DNA of 64,000 bases from an uncultured Gammaproteobacteria bacterium (GTDB lineage Bacteria; Pseudomonadota; Gammaproteobacteria; Arenicellales; CAJQKF01), in assembly GCA_905478855.1 (NCBI GenBank), contig CAJQKF010000021.1:1-64000 (forward strand), in the 5' to 3' direction. A program made the translations under genes and the position numbers. Positions 36,042-53,631 of the stretch are shown piece by piece. The stretch's first letter is position 1, and each line of letters begins with the position of its first letter. The notes beneath the pieces are model-generated. The model had not been told where the DNA came from. It was given only the letters and a program-made list of their open reading frames with translations, and ran no database searches.

Positions 36042-36170
36042 TAATAACTCCCTAAATAATAAAAGTTGGAATCTGGCCAATAACGTATAGAATGCGTCAT
36101 CGCAGCAAAGAAATTTAGACGCAATCGTATATCCGATTTCCGCCCATGCGTCAATTACCATCGCAGAGAA

Positions 36171-36818
36171 ATGGAACAAAATAGCCCCCAACCCCGAAAT
36201 ATCAGCCTAAACAGCGCTACATACCTTACCGCAGCTCACCTCAAGCAACAATGGCCAATTTCAACTGGTTTTGAAGTTGCGTTTGCAGGGCGTTCAAATG
36301 TAGGTAAGTCAAGCGCTATAAATGCAATCACCGACCATCACGGTTTGGCAAAAACCAGTAAAACACCTGGAAGAACCCAACAAATAGTGTTTTTTGACCT
36401 AAACAGCGGGGATCGCCTTGTCGACTTCCCTGGGTACGGTTACGCAAAGGTACCAGCAAATGTTAAATTACATTGGAAACGCACTATCAGCGATTTTATC
36501 GAGACTCGTGATGTTTTATGCGGCCTAGTGCTACCTATGGATATCCGCCATCCCCTAACGCCTCTAGATATAACCATGCTGGAATGGTGCTCCTCAGTAG
36601 GACTACCCGTCCATGTGTTGCTCACCAAATCTGACAAACTTAGTAAAAGTCGAGCAAACGCCGCTCTTTTTGAAGTACGTAAGGAATTGAAAGCTTATTC
36701 AGCTTCTAGTATTCAATTATTTTCAGCTTCAAAAAAAGTCGGTGTTCAAGAAGCACGAAAGGCAATTATTGATTTTTTACTCGACGCAAAAAAAAGCCCC
36801 AGCAACAATTCAGAGTGA
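36171..36818 (+). CDS. engB: Ribosome-biogenesis GTPase EngB (YihA/YsxC)
   Basis: The 215-residue GTPase assists 50S subunit assembly. Motifs are G1 GRSNVGKSSAI (about 40-50), G2 region TPGRTQQIVFF, G3 DFPGYGYAKVP, G4 TKSDKLS and G5 SASKK. Length and order are standard. It is divergent from cytochrome c4 and convergent with polA. Its last codons overlap the minus-strand terminator of the sRNA downstream of polA, so the two transcripts would interfere or pair at their 3' ends. Confidence 0.97.
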   Translation: MEQNSPQPRNISLNSATYLTAAHLKQQWPISTGFEVAFAGRSNVGKSSAINAITDHHGLAKTSKTPGRTQQIVFFDLNSGDRLVDFPGYGYAKVPANVKLHWKRTISDFIETRDVLCGLVLPMDIRHPLTPLDITMLEWCSSVGLPVHVLLTKSDKLSKSRANAALFEVRKELKAYSASSIQLFSASKKVGVQEARKAIIDFLLDAKKSPSNNSE

Positions 36819-36828
36819 AACCTGGGGC
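36788..36828 (-). terminator. Intrinsic terminator of the minus-strand sRNA
   Basis: On the minus strand, GCCCCAG (complement of 36822-36828) pairs with CTGGGGC (complement of 36796-36802) across a 19-base loop and is followed by eight U (36795-36788). The T tract appears only in this orientation. The stem overlaps the last codons of engB on the other strand. It would end the sRNA and any readthrough from polA. Confidence 0.8.
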
Positions 36829-36911
36829 ATTAACGATAAGATTTCAACGTATTGAAAACTGCCGCCGAGGGAGGATCGGCGGAATGAAAAAGTCTTAAGA
36901 CTTCGCCATCA
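36788..36911 (-). ncRNA. Small RNA at the Spot 42 / ErsA position downstream of polA
   Basis: About 124 nt between polA and the convergent engB, read in the polA direction, where enteric Spot 42 (spf) and Pseudomonas ErsA lie. It has a 7-bp stem CCGCCGA/TCGGCGG (36862-36882) whose seven-base loop reads UCCUCCC in the RNA. That is an ideal anti-Shine-Dalgarno seed, as reported for ErsA-type riboregulation. A linker and an intrinsic terminator follow. A sigma-E-like promoter precedes it at proper distance. No open reading frame is present. The start site is estimated from the promoter, and homology by sequence could not be tested. Confidence 0.7.
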
Positions 36912-36916
36912 GTTTT

Positions 36917-36944
36917 ATAGACACTCTACGTATAAAAATGTTCC
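36917..36944 (-). promoter_or_regulatory. Sigma-E/AlgU-like promoter for the polA-engB sRNA
   Basis: Reading the minus strand, GGAACAT (36944-36938), a 16-base spacer and TCTAT (36921-36917) match the extracytoplasmic-stress sigma consensus GGAACTT-N16-TCTGA closely. The predicted start is about 5-8 bases downstream, near 36911. ErsA in Pseudomonas is driven by the sigma-E family factor AlgU from the equivalent position, which makes the match more convincing. Confidence 0.6.
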
Positions 36945-37084
36945 GCACATTACCTATTCGTAACGCTATAGCGTACGAAATATTACCCGATGTTATGAAA
37001 CAAAGTTTATGTTATCCAAGGCTTTTTCATAATCCTGCAATCCATGCATAGCGACTTCACAACGTTCAATATGAAATAATTCTT

Positions 37085-39766
37085 TTAGTGAGCCTGAGCC
37101 CAGTTTTCTCCAACGCCTGCCTCGACCTCTAATGGTACTCTCAGTTGTGCCACATCAATCATAATTGCGGACGCTATTTCAGTAACTTCTGAAATTAATT
37201 CCTTAGGAGCTTCAAGCACCAATTCATCATGAACCTGCAGAATCATCCGTACCTGTGGTTGTTGTGTAAGAATCCATTGATCTACTTTAATCATTGCCAT
37301 TTTAATTAAATCAGCAGCAGTGCCCTGCATGGGAGCGTTGATTGCAGTGCGTTCGGCGTATTGTCTTCGTTGAAAATTACTCGATCTAATTTCGGGCAAA
37401 TAAAGTCTTCGGCCAAATACCGTTTCAACATACTGCTTTTCCTTAGCGACTTCACGAGTCGTATCCATAAATTTTTTCACCCCAGGATAACGTTCAAAAT
37501 ATAAATCAATGTATTCCTGAGCACTTTTACGATCAATACCGAGTTGCCGACCAAGACCAAATGCCGACATTCCATAAATAAGGCCAAAGTTTATCGCCTT
37601 TGCGGAACGCCTTTGGTCATCGCTTACCTGATCGTCATCAACACCAAAAACTTCAGCCGCAGTGGCACGATGTACATCACGCCTTTCTGCGAACGCACTT
37701 AGTAAACTTACATCCTCACTCAAGTGAGCCATAATTCGTAATTCAATTTGACTATAGTCAATTGCAACCAATTGATTTCCTGAATCCGCAACAAATGCCT
37801 CGCGAATGCGTCTACCTTCGGCAGTCCGAATCGGAATGTTTTGTAAATTTGGATCAGATGATGAAAGTCTGCCAGTTGCCGCAACGGCTTGATGATAAGA
37901 CGTATGAATACGACCCGTCGCAGGATTAACAATAAGGGGTAATTTATCCGTATAGGTAGATTTAAGCTTAATTAGGCTCCGATGCTCGAGTATCAAGCTA
38001 GGTAGTTCGTAATTTTCTGCTAACTCTTGTAATACGTTCTCCGCGGTGGACGGCTGACCTTTGGGAGTCTTACTAATAACGGGGAGTCCAAGTTTTTCAA
38101 AGAAAATATGTTGAATCTGCTTTGGCGAAGCGATATTGAATACTTCGCCAGCAACATCATGAGATTTCGCCTCAATCTGTTCAGTTCGAGCCTTTAATTC
38201 GGCACTTTGTTGATACAGCATATCAACATTCACACCGACACCGTTGCGCTCGATACGCGATAGCACGGATAACAGCGGAAGTTCAACTTCAGTTAGTAAT
38301 TTACGAAGAGTTGGCTCCGAGTCCAATTTCGATTCAAAGTACTCAAACAAGCGAAAGGTTATGTCTGCATCTTCCGCAGCGTAATCTTTTGCTACTTCCA
38401 ATTCAACCTTGTTAAAGGTAATTTGGTTTTTACCCTTGCCTGCGACATCTTCGAACTTTATGGTTTTTAGTCCAAGGTATTTGCTGGCAAGTGTATCCAT
38501 ATCATGCCTGGAACCTGTGCTATCTAGAACATAAGACGACAGCATAGTGTCACCAACGATTCCGTTTATCTCGAACCCGTGATTTTCAAGAACTGTTTGA
38601 TCATATTTTAGATTTTGTCCTACCTTACCTACACTAGCATCCGATAGAAGCGGTCCCAACAATTCATTTACCTCGGAGAGTGAAAGCTGCTCTGGAGCAT
38701 TTTCATAGTCATGAGCGACAGGTAGATAAGCCGCTTTTCCAGTCTCGCAGCAAAATGAAAAACCCACTAAACACGCGGTCATCGAGTTTACGGATGTAGT
38801 CTCCGTATCGATCGCAAAAGTCCCCGAAGCTCTCAAACGAGAAATCCAGTCAACCAGAGCAACTTTTGTCAGAATCAGGTCATAATCAACCTCTATAACA
38901 TTCTCCGGTTCTTCCTCGTCTGCCCCACCAAGTTCCGCAAGCCAGCTTCGGAATTCGTAAGTTGCAAACAATTCACGTAACACGGTTTCATCAACTTCTA
39001 AAACACGCATCGATTCCGCGTCGGCGTGCAGTGAAACATCACATTTAATGGTCACCAACTGTCGGGAAAGTTCAATTTGATCCAGGCTGGCACGAAGATT
39101 TTCTCCAACTTTACCCTTAATATCGTCGGCGTGCGCAATAATAGTATCTAGATCATTGTACTGTTCAAGCCATTTAGCGGCAGTTTTAGGCCCTACTTTT
39201 GGAACGCCCGGAATATTATCGGAGGTATCGCCTATCAAGGTAAGATAGTCAATTATCTGCTCAGGTAAGACACCGAACTTTGATTTAACCCCTTCGATGT
39301 CATAGGTAATATCCTTCATCGTATCCAACATGACAACATTGCTGTCAACCAGTTGGGCTAAATCCTTGTCACTACTGACTATTGTCACCTTAACACCGTC
39401 CGCAGAAGCACTGCGTGACAAAGTTCCGATCACATCATCAGCCTCCACACCGCGCTCACAGAGTAGTGGCAATCCAAGCGCAACAACGGCTCGATGAATC
39501 GGCTCGATCTGACTTCGTAAATCATCCGGCATCGGCGGTCGGTTCGCCTTGTACTCAGGGTACATTTCATTACGAAACGTCGATCCTTTTGCATCAAAGA
39601 CAACTACCATATGGGTAGGCTTATATTGCTCTTCGAGACGACGCAGCATATTAATAACACCGTATATTGCACCCGTCGCCTGACGCTCAGAGTTTTGCAA
39701 ATTAGGCATCGCGTGGAACGCCCGAAAGAGATAGGAAGAACCGTCAACCAAAAAGAGTTGTTTCAT
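37085..39766 (-). CDS. polA: DNA polymerase I
   Basis: The 893-residue enzyme has all three domains. The 5'-3' flap exonuclease (about 1-290) shows VDGSSYLFRAFHA and GVEADDVIGTL. The 3'-5' proofreading domain (about 300-490) has FAIDTETTSV, QNLKYDQTVL and YAAEDADITF, so its metal-binding acidic residues are intact. The polymerase domain has VAIDYSQIELRIMAHLSED, the O-helix RRSAKAINFGLIYGMSAFG and QVHDELVLEA. It removes Okazaki primers and repairs gaps. It is transcribed towards the sRNA and engB. Confidence 0.98.
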   Translation of the reverse strand: MKQLFLVDGSSYLFRAFHAMPNLQNSERQATGAIYGVINMLRRLEEQYKPTHMVVVFDAKGSTFRNEMYPEYKANRPPMPDDLRSQIEPIHRAVVALGLPLLCERGVEADDVIGTLSRSASADGVKVTIVSSDKDLAQLVDSNVVMLDTMKDITYDIEGVKSKFGVLPEQIIDYLTLIGDTSDNIPGVPKVGPKTAAKWLEQYNDLDTIIAHADDIKGKVGENLRASLDQIELSRQLVTIKCDVSLHADAESMRVLEVDETVLRELFATYEFRSWLAELGGADEEEPENVIEVDYDLILTKVALVDWISRLRASGTFAIDTETTSVNSMTACLVGFSFCCETGKAAYLPVAHDYENAPEQLSLSEVNELLGPLLSDASVGKVGQNLKYDQTVLENHGFEINGIVGDTMLSSYVLDSTGSRHDMDTLASKYLGLKTIKFEDVAGKGKNQITFNKVELEVAKDYAAEDADITFRLFEYFESKLDSEPTLRKLLTEVELPLLSVLSRIERNGVGVNVDMLYQQSAELKARTEQIEAKSHDVAGEVFNIASPKQIQHIFFEKLGLPVISKTPKGQPSTAENVLQELAENYELPSLILEHRSLIKLKSTYTDKLPLIVNPATGRIHTSYHQAVAATGRLSSSDPNLQNIPIRTAEGRRIREAFVADSGNQLVAIDYSQIELRIMAHLSEDVSLLSAFAERRDVHRATAAEVFGVDDDQVSDDQRRSAKAINFGLIYGMSAFGLGRQLGIDRKSAQEYIDLYFERYPGVKKFMDTTREVAKEKQYVETVFGRRLYLPEIRSSNFQRRQYAERTAINAPMQGTAADLIKMAMIKVDQWILTQQPQVRMILQVHDELVLEAPKELISEVTEIASAIMIDVAQLRVPLEVEAGVGENWAQAH

Positions 39767-52960: not shown

Positions 52961-53400
52961 TAAGATGTGCATCAACACGACCACGATACAGCCTACCAAA
53001 GAAAAAGCCCTGAGCAAAATGCACGTTTAAGGTATGTGGAGTATATTTTCCTAGATAAGCTAAAATGCGTGCTAAGTATACACACTGGAGAAATAAGAAC
53101 CGTCCTAGATCATGCATAGCACCATGCTTGGAGTCGCCTTTCAGCTAACACATCACATTCAAAACATTCGTCAAACTATTGATTAGAATACCACCTGTCA
53201 AAACTCTTGACTCAACATATTCTAGCCGTAATAAAATGACTATCGAGGCTGCGTATAAGTTACTGATAGAGCAAGTAACTTAATTAAACTCAACAATGTA
53301 ATGTCTGTATTGTTAAAACTATAATTTTATCGCATTAATTTGAACTTAATCAGTGAAAGCAACGTCTTATAGTTAATCACGTCAAACTGGGGTGTCTATA
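52961..53400. other. Intergenic region with promoter-like and palindromic elements
   Basis: No convincing gene is seen. TTGACT at 53207-53212 is followed by TAATAA (53229) or TAAAAT (53232) at suboptimal spacing, a weak promoter candidate. The inverted repeat AAGTTACT (53257-53264) with AGTAACTT (53274-53281) lies between that promoter and the small gene at 53401. It could be an operator or leader structure. Confidence 0.35.
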
Positions 53401-53631
53401 ATGCTAAGCTATATTTATCGTTTATTCAGGGAATTTGAATTGCACATGGGGTATGCACCCAATGTATTATTTATTAATCACGAGCACATGGAGCATTTGA
53501 AGAGCAGTTTTGAACCACAATCGAATTTGGATGATATTCGAGACCGACTAGGATTAGAAATCCTACTACGTCGTGGAGCGCTGCATCCAAGTGTAAACTG
53601 GGTAGCCAGCGCCGCACGAAAAACAGGTTAG
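53401..53631 (+). CDS. Small hypothetical protein
   Basis: The ATG at 53401 gives 76 residues; a GTG three codons upstream is an alternative. The protein starts LSYIYRLFREFELHMGYAPN and has FINHEHMEHLKSSF, GLEILLRRGALHPSVNW and a basic end. I recognise no domain, but the composition and codon use look genuine and it resembles small conserved proteins of gammaproteobacteria. No partner is adjacent. It lies 61 bp before the convergent SDR gene. Confidence 0.55.
   Translation: MLSYIYRLFREFELHMGYAPNVLFINHEHMEHLKSSFEPQSNLDDIRDRLGLEILLRRGALHPSVNWVASAARKTG

Follow-up and report, generated by a model that had tools for sequence, protein, structure and literature searches.

A predicted small RNA gene with a sigma-E-type promoter beside engB in an uncultured gammaproteobacterium and its relatives

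Whether the interval between polA and engB in this uncultured gammaproteobacterium holds a small RNA (sRNA) gene of its own, and to which known family such an RNA would belong, is the question raised by this locus. A sequence-only reading of the window (the whole stretch of 64,000 nt analysed here) had proposed an sRNA of the ErsA or Spot 42 type on the minus strand, preceded by a sigma-E-like promoter. The ordered set that it described, GGAACAT-N16-TCTAT followed by a 7-bp stem with a UCCUCCC loop, a terminator and U8, was recovered complete, and the features of the locus were placed as follows:

36788-36911, minus strand: predicted sRNA of about 124 nt, with its putative 5' end within a few bases of 36911
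36938-36944, minus strand: -35 element GGAACAT of the sigma-E-type promoter, assigned from sequence; the family mate G001 has the same element
36917-36921, minus strand: -10 element TCTAT (context GTCTATA), with a 16-nt spacer to the -35 element
36883-36910, minus strand: SL1, the 5' hairpin, present in the MFE and centroid structures
36862-36882, minus strand: SL2, the seed hairpin CCGCCGA-UCCUCCC-UCGGCGG (7 bp, 7-nt loop), from fold and covariation
36869-36875, minus strand: the SL2 loop UCCUCCC, nearly invariant in relatives
36839-36860, minus strand: SL3, the third hairpin, from the fold; covarying helix 2 in alignment A4
36788-36828, minus strand: Rho-independent terminator with a long loop and U8, from the fold; helix 3, covarying
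36171-36818, plus strand: engB (YihA/YsxC GTPase; ORF, Pfam MMR_HSR1), the convergent neighbour and the anchor gene of the family
37085-39766, minus strand: polA (ORF, Pfam DNA_pol_A), upstream on the sRNA strand

The observed set of elements is far from chance. The 124-nt RNA folded at -37.9 kcal/mol (z = -3.6), and none of 200 shuffled sequences folded as well. The fold has four parts, namely SL1, the UCCUCCC-loop hairpin SL2, SL3 and the terminator with its eight U, of which SL1 (36910-36883) and SL3 (36860-36839) are additions to the anatomy described before. The terminator stem GCCCCAG...CUGGGGC, of 7 bp, spans 36828-36796, and U8 occupies 36795-36788. The 3' 31 nt of the sRNA (36788-36818) overlap the last part of engB on the opposite strand, so that the U-run of the terminator is written in the last codons of engB. 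Just upstream of the -35 element, a near-perfect inverted repeat, TTCGTACGC-TATA-GCGTTACGAA, was observed at 36957-36979; no U-run follows it, and it could be an operator or the 3' hairpin of polA.

When the window was scanned against Rfam at the gathering thresholds, no family reached its curated score. A permissive search of the region gave a sole significant match, anti-hemB (RF02837), which aligned over its full length (1-81) with 33.9 bits and an E-value of 3e-6, below the gathering cut-off of 49.5 bits. The family mates G001-G003 passed this cut-off (50.6-59.6 bits), all three at the same engB-adjacent place, and one further genome, G009, carried an above-cut-off anti-hemB directly beside engB. 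The covariance search that the sequence-only reading had suggested went against its two labels: neither the ErsA model (RF01719) nor the Spot 42 model (RF00021) matched in the region up to an E-value of 10, anti-hemB being the best match. Membership in either family was not supported on this ground. The nearest Rfam family of the window sRNA is anti-hemB, sub-threshold here.

The anti-hemB family (also Burkholderia RNA 7, and ncS04 in B. cenocepacia) has a plan of a UCCUCCCU-loop stem, a second hairpin and a U-run terminator, and the window RNA conforms to it by alignment, fold and covariation. The two differ in their neighbours, which are the convergent engB and polA in the window instead of the hemB of the family name, and in the sigma-E-type promoter, which is present in the window but missing at L222, an anti-hemB locus, and at the copies L306 and L307. 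In B. cenocepacia, anti-hemB/ncS04 was seen at approximately 105 nt on a Northern blot and was Hfq-bound (PMC5688073).

A direct DNA search of relatives returned nothing beyond the window itself, so a structure-aware search was needed. We built a covariance model, R1, from the window and twelve relatives, with the promoter columns left out. On the genome of the window, R1 gave 69 bits over 36887-36788, the sole match at E ≤ 0.01, the window being one of the 13 training rows. Among 369 sampled genomes of Gammaproteobacteria (in the GTDB sense), 166 had a match at E ≤ 0.01 and approximately 136 at E ≤ 1e-5. The phylum-wide sample yielded 14 genomes outside the class with a match at E ≤ 0.01, only one of which was below 5e-4; strong matches are therefore close to confined to the class. 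The strongest out-of-class match (L300, 2124-2226, in genome G676; E 3e-6) has the loop CUCCUCCUCC and a terminator, with neither polA nor engB adjoining, and a similar RNA was found at L302 in a relative of G676. We read it as a convergent C-rich-loop sRNA or a terminator.

The neighbourhood was then compared across 109 fetched loci, some of which end at a contig edge. engB was convergent in 69, polA preceded the sRNA in the same orientation in 63, and one or both were present in 89, in agreement with the conserved polA/engB position claimed before. In family mates in which the search found no polA end next to engB, the gene was still present. By its score, its convergence with engB and its sigma-E-type promoter, the window sRNA is a member of the family defined by R1.

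The convergent arrangement, which is conserved, and the 31-nt antisense overlap with the 3' end of engB could also be explained by an RNA acting mainly in cis as an antisense to the engB end, or by interference between convergent transcripts. We regard this as highly improbable, since the overlap comprises the terminator only, many relatives stop before engB (by 0 to several hundred nt), the conserved SL2 loop falls outside the overlap, and the Burkholderia relative owes its name to hemB, not engB.

Several genomes had tandem copies of the sRNA, up to five (L227). Arrays of four to five copies were observed at L227 (1077-1802), L218 (1158-2078) and L233 (1149-1888), and most of these copies carry a sigma-E-type promoter of their own. 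A second, separate copy without the sigma-E motif was seen in an Ectothiorhodospiraceae MAG (L051, 6298-6408), approximately 300 nt downstream of the first, and genome G687 has five anti-hemB-type copies at four places. The anti-hemB-type copies L222, L306 and L307 (genomes G206 and G687) are without the sigma-E motif, which suggests that the promoter was replaced in the Burkholderia-like lineage.

Conservation of the structure was assessed by covariation. Of the 15 pairs in a 13-sequence MAFFT alignment, 10 had changed on both sides, and there were 22 double-change cells versus 4.4 after shuffling, a number reached in none of 500 shuffles; slid controls collapsed. For 118 distinct relatives, 501 such cells were counted versus 130 expected (score 0.48 versus 0.14), in an alignment fitted to R1 and hence biased towards the model. 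The SL2 stem of the window has CCGCCG/CGGCGG in place of CCGCUC/GAGCGG, with the loop unchanged. The loop columns (C)CUCCCU are kept in approximately 110 of 119 relatives, and this sequence closely resembles the anti-Shine-Dalgarno at the end of 16S rRNA. Such conservation is consistent with the earlier proposal of a C-rich loop that may cover Shine-Dalgarno sites. With the fold (z = -3.6), the R1 score of 69 bits and the covariation, the claim of an sRNA gene on the minus strand between polA and engB was upheld. It is very probably a real, functional and free-standing sRNA gene, new for this organism.

For the promoter, GAAC-N17-19-TC was found within 120 nt upstream of 123 of the 149 R1 matches, the other 26 being without it. 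The same motif gave a mean of 9.1 and a maximum of 15 in shuffled controls, and 6 on the complementary strand. Although R1 holds no promoter columns, the sites cluster approximately 50 nt before the start of the model. The GAAC-to-TC gap was 18 in 102 of 117 relatives, and the 117 sites gave the consensus (G/T)GAACTTTT and GGTCTTA at constant spacing, which matches the published sigma-E/AlgU promoter type. Most relatives have GGAACTT as the -35 element; the window and its closest genome, G001, have GGAACAT. A promoter matrix (PWM) trained on the 117 relatives, with the window excluded, scored the window site at 16.3 bits, the second-highest value anywhere in the 64 kb with both strands counted, the third site having 12.8 bits. 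The sigma-E-like character claimed for the promoter was thus borne out by its presence in the relatives and its rank. More than a third of the sampled related genomes have both the predicted sRNA and its promoter.

The top PWM site in the window (16.7 bits) lies elsewhere, at 53341-53375 on the plus strand, and reads TGAACTTAA...CGTCTTAT. Approximately 30 nt after it begins an ORF of 76 aa (53401-53631) with no Pfam or NCBIfam match, possibly a sigma-E-controlled small protein.

These data also bear on the origin of the RNA. The sRNA follows polA on the same strand after 140 nt and has a good terminator; sRNAs derived from 3' UTRs are common, and a simple scan for a sigma-70 promoter at the sRNA saw none. 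The locus might accordingly be a structured polA 3' UTR or terminator without a promoter of its own, the short RNA being a processing product, and the sequence-only reading had named conservation pointing to such a polA 3' UTR as a way for its proposal to fail. The comparison makes this very unlikely: the sigma-E-type promoter is kept at a fixed distance upstream in 123 of 149 relatives, the gene stays beside engB where no nearby polA end was found, and tandem copies elsewhere mostly have their own promoter (for example L218 and L227).

RpoE-type ECF sigma factors read GAACTT-N16-TC. The genome encodes an RpoE (300 bits against a cut-off of 236), with RseA directly downstream of rpoE (RseA_N, 42 bits), and also Hfq (102 bits). 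The strict sigma-E pattern occurred 5 times genome-wide and 5 times for the reversed control, showing no enrichment, and no obvious sigma-E-type site was seen upstream of rpoE, so that any exact RpoE consensus for this organism is provisional. A true sRNA whose GGAACAT is read by the housekeeping or another ECF sigma factor, rather than by RpoE, would fit this lack of enrichment, the -35 element GGAACAT in place of GGAACTT with TCTAT as the -10 element, and the Burkholderia-type copies that lack the motif (L222, L306 and L307). We consider it unlikely, considering that G001 shares GGAACAT and has it together with GTCTTAT, that the window site ranks second in 64 kb on the family matrix, and that RpoE, the reader of GAACTT-N16-TC, is encoded with RseA. 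Sequence comparison shows the anatomy of the gene, its conserved structure, loop, promoter and location, and the presence of the rpoE, rseA and hfq genes.

How the predicted RNA relates to known sRNAs was examined family by family. In Pseudomonadaceae, which were picked by their PrrF gene, the engB-polA interval holds Rfam-confirmed ErsA at four loci (L265, L266, L272 and L273), preceded by TGAACTTT-N-GTC or a close form. ErsA is AlgU-driven and represses algC with the aid of Hfq (PMC8395346). ErsA (Pseudomon-1, RF01719) resembles the window sRNA in its place between polA and engB, promoter type, similar length, C-rich loop and terminator. It differs in having the C-rich stretch in the loop of its terminator, and in an upstream hairpin unlike that of the window sRNA; R1 matches it weakly (18-22 bits). 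Since ErsA shares place, promoter and logic with the family, common descent is plausible, not proven, and ErsA is probably the divergent Pseudomonas counterpart of the engB-linked family. The ErsA label therefore stands for promoter type and place, and falls for membership in RF01719.

With Spot 42 (RF00021), the window sRNA shares only its place in the interval downstream of polA. Spot 42 is under CRP control. No sequence or structure similarity was detected by either model, RF00021 having no match at E ≤ 10 and R1 giving 9.7 bits (E 0.58) on a Vibrionaceae Spot 42 (L107, by Rfam); no sigma-E-like promoter was found in L054, L061 and L107. Of the Spot 42 label, gene position holds and the covariance match does not; the promoter type appears to differ. 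A genuine Spot 42 orthologue, serving carbon metabolism under CRP, is suggested by the shared polA-engB interval, and is hardly credible in view of these scores and the apparently different promoter type.

Two further systems share the use of C-rich seeds. sX13 of Xanthomonas also lies downstream of polA, and its C-rich hairpin loops pair with G-rich sites near start codons and repress such start regions independently of Hfq (PMC3771888). By description it is set apart by three stem-loops with 4C/5C loops, against one C-rich loop in the window sRNA, and apparently by its sequence; no sX13-type Rfam match was obtained in the region. The Neisseria siblings NmsRA/NmsRB (NgncR_163/162) block ribosome-binding sites with a UC-rich anti-Shine-Dalgarno seed (PMC9973317, PMC5362039) and are tandem, as in several relatives of the window sRNA. 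They differ in lying between dsbB and lrp and in having a sigma-70-like promoter and stringent-response control (PMC5362039); they were rejected as the same locus.

The explanation that we hold with good confidence is an engB-linked, RpoE-driven, trans-acting sRNA that would block G-rich ribosome-binding sites. From the conserved features we infer transcription, RpoE control, Hfq binding and repression at G-rich start sites. Envelope stress would free RpoE from RseA, and RpoE-polymerase would transcribe the RNA of approximately 120 nt from its own promoter. The SL2 loop UCCUCCC, a copy of the 16S rRNA anti-Shine-Dalgarno, could base-pair with ribosome-binding sites of the AGGGAGG type and block their translation, with Hfq probably on the U8 tail. 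ncS04/anti-hemB, ErsA, sX13 (which acts without Hfq) and the Neisseria siblings serve as precedents for such a mechanism.

Candidate targets were sought by pairing. The exact 8-nt complement AGGGAGGA had five matches before ATG in the genome, none at a convincing gene, and one of the five was the sRNA itself in reverse reading. GGGAGG-N3-9-ATG occurred at 80 sites genome-wide versus 41 for the reversed pattern, an excess that Shine-Dalgarno sites would show in any case. Thirty of the 80 sites were fetched, and two preceded real-looking ORFs, a DAO-type FAD oxidoreductase (L325) and a GXGXG/FwdC-like protein (L336), which may serve as leads only. Against start sites in the window, the loop reached -10.7 kcal/mol at best, whereas the best of shuffled loops averaged -11.9 kcal/mol. 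Pairing within the window thus gave no signal and no support for the nearby surface-glycan genes, which had been put forward as natural targets. On the other side of engB, a c-type cytochrome gene has AGGGAG at the Shine-Dalgarno position (36048-36053, minus strand); it was rejected as a target because this six-base match to the loop is not kept in relatives.

As predicted here, the window sRNA is a variant in which the body is anti-hemB-like and the promoter is of the ErsA type. The putative engB-linked family is widespread, anti-hemB is the part of it described in Rfam, and most relatives have a sigma-E-type promoter. Rfam treats anti-hemB and ErsA as unrelated, and our incomplete literature search met no paper covering both ErsA and sX13; that this pairing of promoter and body is common across the class goes beyond the published descriptions found in that search. 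We give an even chance to a single origin, in which beta- and gammaproteobacteria inherited one ancestral sigma-E-driven sRNA mimicking the anti-Shine-Dalgarno and retained it next to engB. Anti-hemB and ErsA would be branches of it, some lineages would have duplicated it in tandem or swapped its promoter, and Spot 42 may then be a far-diverged, promoter-swapped occupant of the site. If this were true, a single conserved RNA would let envelope stress adjust how G-rich start sites are translated across much of the class. Whether such RNAs also come from the polA locus in other bacteria was a question that the sX13 study did not settle (PMC3771888); for a large part of the class the answer would be yes. 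The prediction is that one envelope-stress sRNA, a decoy of the ribosomal anti-Shine-Dalgarno, would be present in many bacteria for which assembled sequence is all that is known.
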